Below are positions 32,206-43,216 of a DNA stretch of 64,000 nucleotides, piece by piece (the first letter of the stretch is position 1; every line of letters begins with the position of its first letter). A program made the translations under genes and the position numbers. The notes under the pieces are model-generated. The model made no database searches. It saw only the letters and a program-made list of their open reading frames with translations, and had not been told where the DNA came from. The DNA is from Oscillospiraceae bacterium (GTDB taxonomy: Bacteria; Bacillota; Clostridia; Oscillospirales; Ruminococcaceae), in contig JAGAKZ010000016.1 of assembly GCA_017848115.1 (NCBI GenBank), positions 20,026 to 84,025 of the forward strand, in the 5' to 3' direction.

Positions 32206-32850
32206 TTATTTGAATCTTGAATACATTCCCGTGCTTCCGTACAGTGCGGCGGCAGGGTTATGAACCAGCACACGGTCCTTCACAATCAGTATGGTAGTTG
32301 GCGCTTCAACGTGTTTCAGGAACAATGAGTCGTGTCCCACGCAAAGACCAATCATAATATTGAAATCGGTTTTCTGCTCGTTCAGGATTTTTGCCTGCAG
32401 AACGGGGTTGCACATAGACTCATGTCCGCAGCCACCGTTAAGCTTTTTTTCCTCGGGAATACCGATTCGTGTCTTGTCAACGGCTCCAACCTTACAGCCT
32501 ACGGTGTAGTAGCTGATTTTCTCTTTATCAAGCAACTTTGCAAAAAGCCTTGCTTCGGGAATAAGACCTACACAAGTTGCAATTCCGACCTTTTTTGCAC
32601 CTATTCGCTTTATAAATTCGATGGTTTCCTCAACACGAGTCATACGTCCGTAGAATTCGCCTTCGATAGCGGCGGAAACACGTGCGATATTGCCGAGCGT
32701 TTCGTCGTTGTCATAAACCGCAAGGCTCTCGTTCAGCAGGCTTTCGTCAAGCGCTTTTGTAAGGCAGAATTCGGGATATTTTTCCCCCTCATTTTTAAAG
32801 CAGCCGAATTTATTGCAAGCTGAGCAGGTAAGACATTTCTTATTAGCCAT
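32206..32850 (-). CDS. DUF1847 putative metal-binding protein
   Basis: About 214 residues starting MANKKCLTC. The Cys-rich N-terminus (CLTCSACNKFGCF) and further Cys residues in ATCVGL, GCGHESMCNP and GLCVGHDS are typical of DUF1847, annotated as metal-binding but without known activity. ATG 32850 follows AGAGG by ten bases; longer starts lie within ssuA-like coding. Placement directly after the solute-binding protein suggests it handles the imported compound or its sulfur. Confidence 0.8.
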   Translation of the reverse strand: MANKKCLTCSACNKFGCFKNEGEKYPEFCLTKALDESLLNESLAVYDNDETLGNIARVSAAIEGEFYGRMTRVEETIEFIKRIGAKKVGIATCVGLIPEARLFAKLLDKEKISYYTVGCKVGAVDKTRIGIPEEKKLNGGCGHESMCNPVLQAKILNEQKTDFNIMIGLCVGHDSLFLKHVEAPTTILIVKDRVLVHNPAAALYGSTGMYSRFK

Positions 32851-32870
32851 AAAAATCAATCCTCTTTTCA

Positions 32871-33863
32871 TCAATATGTATCTTCAACATCGTCAAATTT
32901 TGCGAAGGAATTCTCTATCAGTGCCTCCGCATCGGTATCGGCTCTGATGATACCGATATCCTGAAGCTCGGTTACACTCTGTTGCAGTGCATTATAACCG
33001 CCACTTACCGATGGGGCAAAATTATAGCTGTCGAGAATAGCTGCATTTAACTCCAAATCGCCTGTCACATAGTTTTTATCTAGCTGAAGCTGTGCGGTTT
33101 CCGTAGGATTTTCCTCAATCCACTTTGCCGCCTTCATAACAGCTCTGGTGTATTTAGCAGCAAGATCAGGATGGTTTTCGGCAAGGTCGGTTGTTACGAA
33201 GCTGATGCAGCAGTATTCGTCCTTATATTTTTCGTCGGTCGTGGTGTTGATGATTACACGGAGATTATATTCCTTTTCGGCAATGGAAACTACAGGGTCG
33301 TGTGTGACAAATGCGTCAATTGCACCGTTCTGCAAAGCTATGGGCAGGTCATTGTTGCTGTAGACAACAAATTCTACTTCCATATTATCTGCTGTAACGC
33401 CGATTCCTGCTTCGGCAAGCGAACGCTTCGCAATCAACGTAGGAGAATCTGCCAGGCTCGGCGTGCCGATTTTTTTACCCTTAAGGTCTTCAACGCTCTT
33501 GATATCGGAATCGCTGGGAACTACCAGCTTGGTGCAACCTGTATGGATACCTGCGGTCAGCTTCATAGGCAGACCGTTTTCAAGCGGCTGAATGAATTTT
33601 CCCACAAGTCCGAAGCCTGCGTCAACCTCGCCCGAGCCGACTGCCTCTGTAATAACGCCGCCAATATTGATTGGCTCAAATTTCAAGCCTTCTTCTTCAA
33701 AATATCCGTTTTCGATTGCAACATGAATGGGTGCGTGGCACAAGCTTGTGGAATATCCGATTTTGACAACATCTTCATCCGTCTTGTTCTCCTTTGCACA
33801 ACCGCTCATTACAGTGAGCAGAAGTGCGGATGATGTAATAAATACAAATGGTTTCTTTTTCAT
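32871..33863 (-). CDS. sulfonate/nitrate/taurine-type ABC substrate-binding lipoprotein
   Basis: 330 residues with a lipoprotein signal (lipobox VMSGC, Cys22) and the NMT1/SsuA-like fold: GYSTSLCHAPIHVAIENGYFEEEG, VGSGEVDAGFG, DLKGKKIGTPSLADSP. It should bind a small sulfur-containing or similar anionic solute and deliver it to the SsuC-like permease. The sulfur setting favours a sulfonate or thiol compound, but the ligand cannot be read from sequence. AAAAGGAG precedes the ATG. Confidence 0.88.
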   Translation of the reverse strand: MKKKPFVFITSSALLLTVMSGCAKENKTDEDVVKIGYSTSLCHAPIHVAIENGYFEEEGLKFEPINIGGVITEAVGSGEVDAGFGLVGKFIQPLENGLPMKLTAGIHTGCTKLVVPSDSDIKSVEDLKGKKIGTPSLADSPTLIAKRSLAEAGIGVTADNMEVEFVVYSNNDLPIALQNGAIDAFVTHDPVVSIAEKEYNLRVIINTTTDEKYKDEYCCISFVTTDLAENHPDLAAKYTRAVMKAAKWIEENPTETAQLQLDKNYVTGDLELNAAILDSYNFAPSVSGGYNALQQSVTELQDIGIIRADTDAEALIENSFAKFDDVEDTY

Positions 33864-33877
33864 CTTGTATTCTCCTT

Positions 33878-34657
33878 TTATAAATAGTATTCAAGCTCAG
33901 TAATTTTACCGCCGTAATTGAGCAGCTTCAGAATTTCGCCGCGGTATTTCAGAAATTCGGGATTGCTTCTTGCTCTCGGGTGAGCAAGCTCAATGCTGAC
34001 AACCTTTTCGATTTTAGCGGGACGGGCAGACATAACTACAACACGGTCTGAAAGATAGATTGCTTCGTCAACATCGTGAGTAACCATAATCATGGTCATG
34101 TTATGCTCCTTACGGATACGTAGAATTTCGTCCTGAATGTTCATTCTTGTGAAAGCGTCAAGAGCGCCTAACGGCTCATCGAGCAGTAGCACCTTCGGAT
34201 GTCCGACCAAAGCTCTTGCGAGAGAGGCACGCTGGCACATACCGCCCGACAGCTGATGGGGATAGGAGCGTTCAAAGCCTTTAAGCCCCACAAGCTCTAT
34301 GTATTCGTCCACGTTATGCTTCTTTTCTTTATAAATTTTACGGGCACGCAGACCGAACGCTACATTGTCATAGATGTTAAGCCAAGGAAAAAGCGTATGA
34401 TTCTGAAACATAAAGCCGCGTTCGCAGTCAGGCTTTTTGATTTCCTTTCCGTCAAGAGTAAGCCTTCCGCCATCGGGGAAAATCAGACCTGCAATCAGCC
34501 TCAGAAGTGTGGATTTGCCGCAGCCCGACGGTCCGATAAGTGATACAAACTCACCGGGCTTTATGTCAAGATTAATGCCGTTCAGTGCGACAACCTCGTC
34601 GCCGTCAGCCGACATAAACTTTTTCACGGCATTGTCGATAATAATTTCGCCTACCAT
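33878..34657 (-). CDS. sulfonate/nitrate/taurine-type ABC ATPase
   Basis: 259 residues of the SsuB/TauB family: Walker A GPSGCGKST (about 43-51), signature LSGGMCQRASLARAL (about 143), Walker B LLLDEPLGALD, H-loop VTHDVDEA. It energises the SsuC-like permease, whose stop it overlaps by 7 bp. AAAGGAG precedes the ATG. Confidence 0.92.
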   Translation of the reverse strand: MVGEIIIDNAVKKFMSADGDEVVALNGINLDIKPGEFVSLIGPSGCGKSTLLRLIAGLIFPDGGRLTLDGKEIKKPDCERGFMFQNHTLFPWLNIYDNVAFGLRARKIYKEKKHNVDEYIELVGLKGFERSYPHQLSGGMCQRASLARALVGHPKVLLLDEPLGALDAFTRMNIQDEILRIRKEHNMTMIMVTHDVDEAIYLSDRVVVMSARPAKIEKVVSIELAHPRARSNPEFLKYRGEILKLLNYGGKITELEYYL

Positions 34658-35595
34658 TTGATAACTCCTTTCTGCCAGTTCAGGAACCTATCTCTCACCC
34701 TGAACAGCAGCGTAATCAGCACCGAAAACAGCACTGCGATAATAATAAGTCCTGCATATACGTTTGCGTAGGAGAGCATCTCCTTCTGCCAGTTGATATA
34801 CCAGCCGATTCCGTATTTTGCACCTATCATTTCAGCTGTAACAAGCGTGATAAAGGAAGAGCATATTCCGTTGAAAAGTCCGAGAAACATATTCGGCATT
34901 GCTGCCGGAATGCCCACCTTGAACACCTGATAAAGGTGACCTGCTCCAAGAGTGCCTGAAATTTCAAAATATGAATTCTGAATATTTGAGATGCCGCTGC
35001 TGGTCATAAGCGTTGTCGGGAACCATACCGCCAGACCCACAAGAAAAGCGCTTGCGGAAACTGCTGAGGGGAAGCTGATAAGTACCAGAGGAATCCACGC
35101 TGTTGACGGAATCGGACCGAGAATTCGTATTACGGGACTTATCCAGTAGGAAAAGCTTTTTGAAAATCCGAGGCATATTCCCGTTATAATTCCAATCAAT
35201 GCACCGAAGAAAATGCCTAAACCCAGCAATCTGAGCGAATATAGAATACATTTTATCAGCACATCGTACTCCTCCGCCATAACGCCGAACACACGGTCGA
35301 GCGATGGAAAATACAATATCGGGAGCAGAGCCAGCTTAGCTGTCAGCAGATTGAGAATATTGAAAAACAATATGACGCCACCTATAAAATAGCCTCTGTA
35401 CACAAGCTTCTCATTAAGCTTCTTACTGCGAAATGACGCTATAAAGAAGATTAGGTAAACTGACAGTATGCCAATCAGAACATATGTAAAATAAGGCTTT
35501 GACTGGGGGTGAAGAGATGACCTCGGAACTAATATCTGTACCGCTATTGCAAGTACTGCGGACAGAATCGGGATAATTTTTTTAAATAAATTCAT
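34651..35595 (-). CDS. sulfonate/nitrate/taurine-type ABC permease
   Basis: 314 residues from ATG 35595 (MNLFKKII), supported by GGAGG upstream. Six to seven membrane segments are visible, plus the EAA-like cytoplasmic loop FEISGTLGAGHLYQVFKVGIPAAMP. Related to SsuC/TauC but with an extra N-terminal membrane region (residues about 1-90) before the usual core. It is the first gene of the seven-gene operon and is preceded by a 300-base regulated leader. Confidence 0.88.
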   Translation of the reverse strand: MNLFKKIIPILSAVLAIAVQILVPRSSLHPQSKPYFTYVLIGILSVYLIFFIASFRSKKLNEKLVYRGYFIGGVILFFNILNLLTAKLALLPILYFPSLDRVFGVMAEEYDVLIKCILYSLRLLGLGIFFGALIGIITGICLGFSKSFSYWISPVIRILGPIPSTAWIPLVLISFPSAVSASAFLVGLAVWFPTTLMTSSGISNIQNSYFEISGTLGAGHLYQVFKVGIPAAMPNMFLGLFNGICSSFITLVTAEMIGAKYGIGWYINWQKEMLSYANVYAGLIIIAVLFSVLITLLFRVRDRFLNWQKGVIKW

Positions 35596-35641: not shown

Positions 35642-35698
35642 TCACATTCGTCCGAAACGGAAATTTGCTCTTACGAGTTTCTCAAAGTAATTTACCAT
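35642..35698 (-). CDS. conserved tiny ORF in the ABC operon leader (18 codons)
   Basis: MVNYFEKLVRANFRFGRM, 44 bases upstream of the permease start. AGGAAGG lies upstream of its ATG. A homologous 22-codon ORF precedes metY (43148-43216). In the shared core LVRANFRFGRM the two DNA copies differ only at synonymous third positions (GCA/GCC, CGT/CGC, GGA/GGG), so the peptide appears selected. It may be a leader peptide for translational control or coupling, or a functional micropeptide. Confidence 0.7.
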   Translation of the reverse strand: MVNYFEKLVRANFRFGRM

Positions 35699-35725
35699 AA
35701 TTTTCACCTTCCTGAAATAAAAAAT

Positions 35726-35750
35726 CGGAGAACTCCCATAGAAGTCTCCG
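35726..35750 (-). terminator. attenuator terminator in the ABC operon leader
   Basis: On the minus strand CGGAGA (35750-35745) pairs with TCTCCG (35731-35726), with an added ACT/AGT inner helix, followed by ATTTTTTATTT. It lies between the promoter and the first structural gene, so it can stop transcription early. Its 5' arm can pair instead with TCTCCG at 35794-35789, just after the leader peptide stop. Confidence 0.7.
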
Positions 35751-35797
35751 AAAATAAAGCAACAGACTCTAATGTTTTGCCTTTAAAACGGAGATTA

Positions 35798-35851
35798 CTA
35801 CGGATAAATAATCAGAGAGAAGGATATGCACATACACATTGCCACTTTCAT
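35798..35851 (-). CDS. Met-Cys leader peptide of the ABC operon attenuator
   Basis: 17 codons, MKVAMCMCISFSLIIYP, with a strong AAAGGAG seven bases before the ATG. Codons 5-8 read Met-Cys-Met-Cys. The stop is followed within three bases by TCTCCG, the proposed antiterminator arm. A ribosome that reaches the stop would cover that arm and let the terminator form. A ribosome stalled at the Cys/Met codons would leave it free. This is the layout of amino-acid-sensing attenuators. Confidence 0.7.
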   Translation of the reverse strand: MKVAMCMCISFSLIIYP

Positions 35852-35900: not shown

Positions 35901-35937
35901 ATCTTAGCACGGATTACCTACCTTGTCAATAGGTAAT
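35901..35937 (-). promoter_or_regulatory. ABC operon promoter with Rrf2-type operator
   Basis: Minus-strand TTGACA (35929-35924) and TAAGAT (35906-35901), 17-bp spacer. The -35 box is the centre of a perfect palindrome with arms ATTACCTA (35913-35920) and TAGGTAAT (35930-35937), nine bases apart. Almost the same site overlaps the metY promoter. A repressor bound here would block polymerase; the Rrf2 protein encoded at 36.1 kb is the obvious candidate. Confidence 0.75.
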
Positions 35938-41812: not shown

Positions 41813-43096
41813 TTATTTTAATGCGTTAAAACCATGTTCAAGGTCTGCGATAATATCGTCAATATGCTCGGTACCGATGGAAAGTCTGATTGTGTTTGGC
41901 TTGATGTCCTGTTCGGCAAGTTCCTCCTCGGTAAGCTGACTGTGAGTGGTCGTCGCAGGGTGGATAACGAGAGATTTTGAATCAGCAACATTCGCAAGAA
42001 GCGAGAAAATTTGCAGGCTGTCGATAAACTTGTGCGCCTCTTTTACTCCGCCTTTGATTTCAAAGGTAAAGATTGAACCACCGCCGTTTGGGAAGTATTT
42101 CTCATACAGCTTGTGGTTGGGGTGCTCAGCAAGTGAAGGATGGTTGACCTTTTCAACCTGCGAATGATTTTTCAGGAACTCAACAACCTTCTTCGTATTC
42201 TCAGCGTGTCTGTCAAGACGGAGAGAAAGCGTTTCAACGCCCTGTAAAAGCAGAAATGCGTTGAACGGAGAAAGGGTTGCACCCGTGTCACGGAGCAAAA
42301 TTGCTCTGATGTAAGTAACGAACGCCGCCGCGCCGACTGCCTTTGTAAAGGATACTCCGTGGTAGCTTGGGTTCGGAGCAGCGATTGCAGGATAATTTCC
42401 GCTTGCCTCCCAGTCAAATTTACCCGAATCAACGATGATACCGCCGAGAGTTGTACCGTGACCGCCGATAAATTTTGTTGCGGAGTGAACGACGATATCT
42501 GCACCGTGTTCAATAGGTCGGATAAGGTAAGGTGTACCGAAGGTATTGTCAACTACAAGAGGAAGACCGTGCTTGTGAGCAAGCTCAGCAAGAGCGTCAA
42601 TGTCGGGAATATCACTGTTAGGATTGCCGAGGGTTTCAATGTAGATTGCTCTTGTGTTGTCCTTTATTGCCGCTTCAACTTCAGCTAAATCGTGGATATT
42701 CACAAAGCTTGCTGTAATTCCGAAGTTTGGGAGTGTGTGCGCAAGCAGGTTATAGCTTCCGCCGTAGATGGATTTCTGTGCAACAATGTGACCGCCGTTC
42801 TGTGCAAGAGCCTGAATTGTGTAGGTGATAGCCGCCGCTCCCGAAGCAAGTGCAAGCGCCGCAACGCCACCTTCAAGTGCTGCAATACGCTTTTCAAAAA
42901 CATCCTGTGTGGAATTTGTGAGTCTGCCGTAGATGTTGCCTGCATCTGCAAGACCGAAGCGTGCGGCAGCGTGTTCGCAGTTGCGGAAAACGTAGGATGT
43001 AGTCTGATAAATCGGTACTGCTCTGGAATCTGTTGCGGGGTCGGCTGTTTCCTGTCCAACGTGAAGCTGGAGTGTTTCAAATTTATAGTTTGCCAT
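41813..43096 (-). CDS. metY: O-acetylhomoserine sulfhydrylase MetY
   Basis: Trans-sulfuration-family PLP enzyme that makes homocysteine from O-acetylhomoserine and sulfide. 427 residues with PLP lysine K208 in [11 protein letters not shown], the N-terminal [10 protein letters not shown] signature and SYHG region of MetY proteins. Some members also act on O-acetylserine. It is the first structural gene after the operator promoter and the tiny leader ORF. Confidence 0.93.
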
Positions 43097-43147: not shown

Positions 43148-43216
43148 TCAAAAACATCGACACATTCGCCCGAAGCGGAAATTGGCTCTTACGAGTTGTT
43201 CAAATATATTTTTCAT
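43148..43216 (-). CDS. conserved tiny ORF in the metY leader (22 codons)
   Basis: A 22-codon ORF with TAGGAG eight bases before its ATG. It carries the core LVRANFRFGRM shared with the ABC-operon leader ORF, then ends CRCF, adding two Cys codons just before the stop. Its stop lies 51 bases before metY. Core differences between the two ORFs are synonymous. No terminator follows, so any control would be translational. Confidence 0.7.
   Translation of the reverse strand: MKNIFEQLVRANFRFGRMCRCF

Follow-up and report, generated by a model that had tools for sequence, protein, structure and literature searches.

What decides whether a transcript started upstream of an ABC importer operon in this gut bacterium is carried through into the operon? 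The operon lies in the window, the stretch of 64,000 nucleotides that was analysed as a whole, and its leader is read entirely on the minus strand. A preliminary description of this DNA had seen in the leader a transcription attenuator sensing Cys or Met. Our analysis supports that reading: a ribosome-mediated transcription attenuator that senses when charged tRNA-Cys and/or tRNA-Met run short, with another leader ORF forming a further element in series, is in our judgement the likely answer. The leaders of this kind are as rich in Met as in Cys, so either may be the amino acid that is sensed. The features concerned are collected in Table 1.

Table 1. Parts of the leader, genes of the operon and neighbouring features, in positions of the window
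Feature	Positions	Strand	Basis or remark
Promoter, sigma-70-like, TTGACA-17-TAAGAT	35901..35929	-	Pattern-based scan
Inverted repeat ATTACCTA-9-TAGGTAAT over the -35 element, candidate operator	35913..35937	-	Read from sequence
Leader ORF1, MKVAMCMCISFSLIIYP and stop, 17 codons	35798..35851	-	AAAGGAG at 35865-35859
Arm 1, CCGTAGTAATCTCCG, antiterminator strand on the 5' side, sharing bases with the ORF1 stop codon	35789..35803	-	Folding, covariance model
Arm 3, CGGAGACTTCTATGG, common to antiterminator and terminator	35736..35750	-	Folding, covariance model
Intrinsic terminator and T tract	35715..35751	-	Stem 35751-35725, -13.2 kcal/mol (folded)
Leader ORF2, MVNYFEKLVRANFRFGRM and stop, between terminator and permease	35642..35698	-	CGA-ATG-TGA at 35650-35642
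ABC permease (BPD_transp_1), first structural gene	34651..35595	-	Domain match
ATPase, NMT1/SsuA-like binding protein, DUF1847 protein (next operon genes)	32206..34657	-	Domain matches
Second ORF2 element, MKNIFEQLVRANFRFGRMCRCF and stop, before metY	43148..43216	-	Sequence pattern
metY-like O-acetylhomoserine sulfhydrylase, behind the second ORF2 leader	41813..43096	-	TIGR01326 above cut-off
mnmA, nadA, iscU, iscS	Upstream of the operon		Translations read by eye
cysK and metY	Beyond the preceding genes		cysK by translation read by eye; metY by TIGR01326

The elements on which the attenuator reading was built are present as described, on the minus strand: a 17-codon ORF behind AAAGGAG, with Met-Cys-Met-Cys as codons 5-8, and after it a TCTCCG, a CGGAGA, a second TCTCCG and a T tract, whose coordinates had been read correctly. 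The ORF1 stop (TAG) is followed by TAA, by the first TCTCCG (35794-35789), by 38 bases and by the hairpin TCGGAGACTTCTATGGGAGTTCTCCGA with its T tract. CGGAGA occupies 35750-35745, and the second TCTCCG lies inside the 3' arm of the terminator, followed by ATTTTTTATTT. ORF1 begins about 40 nt downstream of the transcription start that the -10 box predicts, behind a ribosome-binding site; it is therefore not leaderless. Hairpin and T tract of the terminator were recognised by inspecting the letters and then folded; an automated terminator scan did not flag them, flagging a terminator at 36050-36019 instead. ORF1 contains three Met codons, the start included, and two Cys codons. Two Cys codons in 17 are unconvincing alone, and it is the family of leaders described below that carries the claim.

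The operon had been called sulfonate-type. An ABC importer is indeed encoded. The SsuA_fam, SaoX, SaoP and SaoA models match the importer genes below their cut-offs, so sulfonate can be named only as a possible substrate. The importer (32206-35595) resembles the Sao ABC components, with SsuA likewise below cut-off, and accompanies a DUF1847 gene. The operon is likely to be an importer of a sulfur compound. Upstream of it lies a gene for an Rrf2 regulator, which the IscR and CymR models match below cut-off.

Three promoter-like sites were found in 800 bases by pattern scan as against 2.3 in shuffled sequences, so the promoter score alone proves little. The string surrounding the promoter recurs in the window only at the metY promoter. 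For ACCTATTGACANNGTNGGTAA, two window sites were found at no more than three mismatches where 0.06 are expected, and a search of the whole assembly returned these two and one site with two mismatches, which by reading lies inside coding sequence. The two RANFRFGRM micro-ORFs, one ahead of metY and one ahead of the ABC operon, lie under the same promoter and candidate operator sequence. Judged from the sequence, initiation, a layer above both leader elements, is probably governed by an Rrf2-type regulator through the candidate operator.

The predicted fold of the 165-nt leader is better than that of 199 out of 200 shuffled sequences (z -2.99). Terminator and antiterminator had been proposed to exclude each other through TCTCCG and CGGAGA; folding agrees with the exclusion, but the length of the arms had been understated, since arms 1 and 3 pair also via CCGUAG:CUAUGG and the predicted antiterminator comprises 12 pairs rather than 6. 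In the free leader the antiterminator is predicted at 0.72 and the terminator at 0.28. A ribosome at the ORF1 stop would hide arm 1 over its full 15 bases, and when the stop region is masked in this way the predicted fold switches to 0.00 antiterminator and 1.00 terminator. With the ribosome held at one or the other Cys codon, the antiterminator is predicted at 1.00 before the last arm has been made.

Searches with Rfam gave no match at the window leader, either at gathering scores or at E up to 1, the T-box and SAM families included. Leaders of metY-like genes within the window's order were taken from the best-scoring 70 of 86 places (one of them, L155, with shorter upstream sequence); at gathering scores these best 70 of 86 yielded two tRNA genes and no T-box or SAM riboswitch. 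The gathering threshold can miss T-boxes, as only one of four T-box matches in the host genome exceeds the cut-off; 20 of the 70 metY leaders were rescanned at E up to 0.01, and no T-box or SAM riboswitch was found. In the host genome a SAM riboswitch precedes a metK-like gene, and T-boxes precede trpB-, leuA-, cysE- and thrS-like genes, these gene names being given by reading. Neither Pfam nor NCBIfam matched the leader peptides of five relatives or that of the window metY leader.

Relatives of the leader were sought both through the permease and by structure. Among 31 named loci of permease relatives, some of them short, five (L036, L037, L044, L056 and L058) have a Cys-rich ORF with a ribosome-binding site before the operon; L038, whose permease is 80% identical, showed no ORF1 in the screen and has ORF2. 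ORF1 is therefore patchy at this operon. Most of the family support comes from the same module in front of metY-like genes and genes for NlpA/MetQ-like lipoproteins. Comparison of orthologous leaders, which the preliminary description had suggested as a check, thus gave a mixed picture of ORF1 at this operon; paired arms with some compensatory change were found in related leaders. The leader of L056, with a Cys-rich ORF and a terminator-like sequence, was left out of the 19 leaders that were folded. The genes behind those 19 are metY-like, MetQ/NlpA-like or ABC importers; the NlpA domain was confirmed behind L071, L097, L177 and L181, and the remaining metY genes were named by reading of translations and from the search that gave the 86 metY places.

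A covariance model, R1, was built from eight relatives with the window excluded. It matches the window leader with 54.3 bits (E about 2e-12) and with no non-standard pair marked. R1 was searched against 394 genomes of the order (E up to 0.1), giving 32 matches in 30 genomes of which 10 were kept, and against 391 genomes of the class (E up to 0.001), giving 8 matches in 7 genomes of which 6 were kept, the window being counted in both. The 22 dropped in the order comprise L178 and L179, dropped by context, 19 dropped by eye on the ORF listing and one without a locus, which was not viewed; those dropped in the class were L204 and L205. All seven order matches below E 1e-5 have a leader ORF rich in Met and Cys, as do all nine kept members outside R1 (the window, L172, L175, L176, L177, L181, L201, L202 and L206), in which the main Met/Cys cluster falls outside the region covered by R1. 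Because such an ORF was also a criterion for keeping weak matches, it is the strong ones that carry weight.

Nineteen leaders were compiled, some of them recognised partly by their Cys content. All contain a short ORF, a terminator with a folding energy of -12.8 to -23.2 kcal/mol and an arm able to pair with the 5' half of that terminator. The duplex of arms 1 and 3 ranges from -8.3 to -15.9 kcal/mol, that of the window being the strongest, and in 18 of the 19 it beats at least 95% of shuffled arms, the arms having been chosen by eye before the comparison; the arm pairing of L036 is no better than that of shuffled arms (0.308). When 17 leaders were aligned by fitting to the model, 169 of 182 cells were paired and 4 of 11 pairs showed two-sided changes; slid controls gave 29-69% pairing and 0-3 pairs with two-sided changes. 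The two-sided changes come from this structure-fitted alignment only. An eight-sequence MAFFT alignment (A3) shows no two-sided pair change and a pairing of 90.7% against 91.0% in column shuffles, and it supports a kept pairing register only (slid, 30-68%). Another MAFFT alignment, A2, was unusable for column covariation because the third arm of the window was shifted by one base. By eye, the outer helix that is CCGUAG:CUAUGG in the window reads CCGAUA:UAUCGG in L095, UCCGAA:UUCGGA in L176, UUCGAA:UUCGAA in L177, GAUAUGC:GCAUAUC in L181 and GUAUGC:GCAUAC in L058.

Taken together, the 19 leader ORFs have 15.5% Met and 12.3% Cys among their non-start codons; in the 38 long ORFs of the window (14,668 codons) the values are 2.8% Met (415 codons) and 1.6% Cys (236 codons). 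The ORFs themselves vary from 17 to 72 codons and from one to ten Cys, and that of L095 has no stop before the terminator. The extreme is L176, located before an ABC permease, with ten Cys codons in a 50-codon ORF (beginning MMMHRISVHVKNDVCTRCCCCVCRSC) and the strongest terminator of the 19. ORF1 is followed by ORF2 in 14 of the 19 leaders; CGA-AUG lies inside ORF1 in L044 and L058, and no CGA-AUG in frame was found in L037, L176 and L181.

The ribosome had been proposed to mask the first arm when at the stop and to free it when stalled at Cys/Met codons. Folding of the family agrees for the window and for part of the relatives. Placing a ribosome at the stop reduces the predicted antiterminator, as it stands before synthesis of the last arm, to at most 0.20 in eight leaders (the window, L044, L077, L101, L172, L175, L181 and L201), and in eight it still reaches at least 0.61; the remaining three (L097, L176 and L202), in which the free antiterminator is hardly predicted, are uninformative. 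The stop-bound ribosome covers arm 1 fully in the window and partially in L181, L077, L097, L101 and L044, and does not reach it in the other 13; in 10 of the 19 the stop codon lies 24-33 nt past arm 1. In many relatives, then, the masking would have to come from a trailing ribosome, from one within the loop of the antiterminator or from simple passage. As to stalling, which is predicted to leave the antiterminator intact in the window, the predicted antiterminator is 0.31 or less at some Cys positions of L037, L070, L071, L097, L175, L176 and L202. A small hairpin, in many cases CCGC/GCGG, was seen by eye to recur in the segment from arm 2 to arm 3 of L036, L070, L071, L077, L172, L177, L201 and L202; the ORF1 stop lies in its loop or next to it, and the hairpin may serve for pausing.

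The second leader ORF, which the preliminary description had missed, was followed with a pattern for ANFRFGR in which the Arg codons were left free. It was found at 19 places in 18 of 295 genomes, compared to 6 control matches, and 18 of these places are tiny ORFs directly before a metY-like gene, a MetQ-like gene or the window operon, the exception (L076) not being at a sulfur gene. A second pattern gave 14 places in 12 of 391 genomes and no control match; three are in long coding frames (L088, L096 and L099) and four repeat places of the first pattern. The last Arg codon is CGA in all 25 distinct elements, while the inner Arg uses all six codons, and the last CGA precedes ATG in 24, L077 having ACG. 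NFRFGR is kept with synonymous changes, though the patterns required these residues, and many ORF2 peptides share little beyond Arg-Met. In the window CGAATGTG occurs only at the two ORF2 copies, but as two are expected by chance this count alone proves nothing. ANFRFG, NFRFGR and FRFGRM were not found in the texts searched, a collection mostly without subscription papers.

The codon pair was then counted in the metY leaders, always in the best-scoring 70 of the 86 places; a first pass located 52 of the 70 starts, and the later counts are on all 70. CGAATG is present in 40 of these best 70 (6.2 expected; for comparison, TTGACA is present in 32, with 3.9 expected) and in 38 of 66 groups when near-identical leaders are combined. 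Among the 41 sites in these 70, 38 encode Arg-Met in the reading frame of the best-scoring short ORF, and the codon that follows is UGA at 15 of the 41, UGU at 9 and UGC at 9. Recoding of the UGA in ORF2 was considered on the codon counts and was not adopted. CGAATG is missing from 30 leaders of this set, and in 26 of those the rule used detected no short ORF with a ribosome-binding site. An ORF listing of the same 70 that was blind to CGAATG gave 43 short ORFs of this type, 34 with Arg-Met; the Arg codon of Arg-Met is CGA in 32 of 38 cases and other Arg codons are CGA in 13 of 109. Apart from Arg-Met, the peptides of the metY leaders differ widely. For ORF2 as a switch that sequesters a Shine-Dalgarno sequence, mean accessibility over 28 metY leaders was predicted at 0.35 when free and 0.48 with a ribosome at the AUG (shuffled, 0.39 and 0.45). 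L111, L112, L113, L115 and L123 have a different class of metY leader, encoding peptides with Cys-Arg-Met or Gly-Arg-Met-Leu and a nearby Ser-Arg (for example CCRMLCSR), in which CGAATG adjoins an arm like CTCCCGGG 182-199 nt before the gene; this class is possibly another type of attenuator.

CGA is decoded by an inosine tRNA. The tRNA-Arg anticodons found in the host were ACG, CCG and CCT, and no TCG was found in the 81%-complete assembly; because TCT, which should exist, was also not found, the absence of TCG is weak evidence. Poor reading of CGA is reported from the his leader of Salmonella (PMC4046918). Tentatively, and with less than even confidence, we propose that the CGA-AUG pair, conserved at the level of codons in sulfur-gene leader ORFs of the order across otherwise unrelated peptides, makes the ribosome hesitate: CGA with its inosine tRNA in the P site would weaken decoding of AUG, and of the next UGU, UGC or UGA, in the A site, so that a single Met codon could serve as a sensitive gauge of Met or Cys. 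The window would then have such a gauge behind a Cys/Met attenuator, a two-step control of sulfur supply in the usual place of T-box or SAM riboswitches.

For the window leader as a whole, the parts suggest the following course of events. With ample Cys and Met, the ribosome would reach the stop and cover arm 1, the terminator would form and transcription would end near 35715. If tRNA-Cys or tRNA-Met were uncharged, the ribosome would stall at codons 5-8 and leave arm 1 free to pair with arm 3 once that was made, and polymerase would continue into the importer operon. The read-through transcripts would carry ORF2, in which CGA-AUG presumably marks a place of slow or hunger-sensitive translation with an effect on the following gene.

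The reading that ORF1 senses methionine, or both amino acids, rather than cysteine, the recurring feature being AUG flanking UGY codons and many of the genes that follow being methionine genes, is one that we take seriously without expecting it to hold. Met exceeds Cys in 14 of the 19 leaders with the start included, most clearly in L181 (9 Met, 1 Cys) and L177 (8 Met, 3 Cys); metY-like and MetQ-like genes are among those behind the leaders, and there are ORF2 variants ending in CGA-AUG-UGA without a Cys codon at that place. In L176, however, 10 Cys stand against 3 Met before an ABC permease, the two are equal in L044 (5/5) and L058 (7/7), and the gene in the window is an importer without an assigned substrate. 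It is unlikely, on the other hand, that the window element is a decayed copy that has lost most of its Cys codons, with the operon now mainly under the Rrf2 operator and ORF2. The comparison with L036, whose permease is 98% identical and whose ORF1 has 44 codons and 6 Cys as against 17 and 2 in the window, would fit such decay, but the window retains its ribosome-binding site, the strongest arm 1:arm 3 duplex of the 19 and a stop at which a ribosome would cover arm 1 completely.

Two further readings fare worse. MCM and CC patterns repeat among the leaders, as they might in a functional Cys-rich micropeptide, perhaps binding metal or thiols, with the terminator constitutive or under protein control; yet length, number of Cys and their spacing vary widely, ORF1 runs into arm 1 or up to it, and most of the alternative pairing is preserved, which makes this very unlikely. 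That the terminator is run by an unrecognised small-molecule riboswitch and the ORF is incidental is more improbable still: a structured leader with mutually exclusive hairpins would suit it, but no Rfam family was found at the thresholds used, the segment separating arms 2 and 3 differs among the leaders in both length and sequence, and all 19 leaders contain the Met/Cys ORF, though Cys content helped to recognise some.

If ribosome-mediated attenuation holds, translation itself would be a sulfur sensor in many gut bacteria, and CGA-AUG would be a clean natural case of a codon pair tuning the speed of the ribosome. Agathobaculum butyriciproducens (L058) is a cultured host with a related leader. 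In Firmicutes, Clostridia included, amino acid and sulfur genes are usually controlled by T-boxes (RF00230) and SAM riboswitches (RF00162), neither of which was matched at the window leader or, at gathering scores, at the metY leaders (best 70 of 86). The classical leader-peptide attenuators are those of the trp, his and ilv operons of Proteobacteria. With these the present leaders share a short ORF rich in regulatory codons, a terminator and a mutually exclusive antiterminator; they differ in their Cys/Met codons, in their occurrence in Clostridia, in a stop that often lies beyond the first arm and in the frequent presence of a second conserved ORF. That cysteine-codon attenuators are little described in Clostridia, as had been remarked, agrees with our literature search, which found no report of Cys/Met leader attenuators there and had most subscription papers outside it.

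A leader peptide in Firmicutes where a T-box would be expected has a parallel, for another amino acid, in the His leader peptide of hisS/hisZ in Bacilli (Naville and Gautheret 2010, PMC2965389); that paper further records, ahead of (alkane)sulfonate ABC operons, attenuators whose mechanism is unknown, including one from bacilli. In Actinobacteria, leader ORFs with Cys codons occur before sulfur genes (Seliverstov 2005, PMC1262725), but the aligned mycobacterial leaders are reported to have no conserved terminator hairpins, whereas terminators and alternative arms are found here. The polycysteine ORFs of mycobacteria (Canestrari 2020, as cited in PMC13236596) are likewise upstream ORFs that respond to Cys; they are described as leaderless and as acting by translation attenuation, in contrast to the ribosome-binding site and terminator of the present leader. 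Leader-peptide attenuators are themselves a known kind, of which the window leader is very probably a Cys/Met variant, coupled to an unexplained element at the level of codons; that element, ORF2, might be more than a variant of known attenuators.
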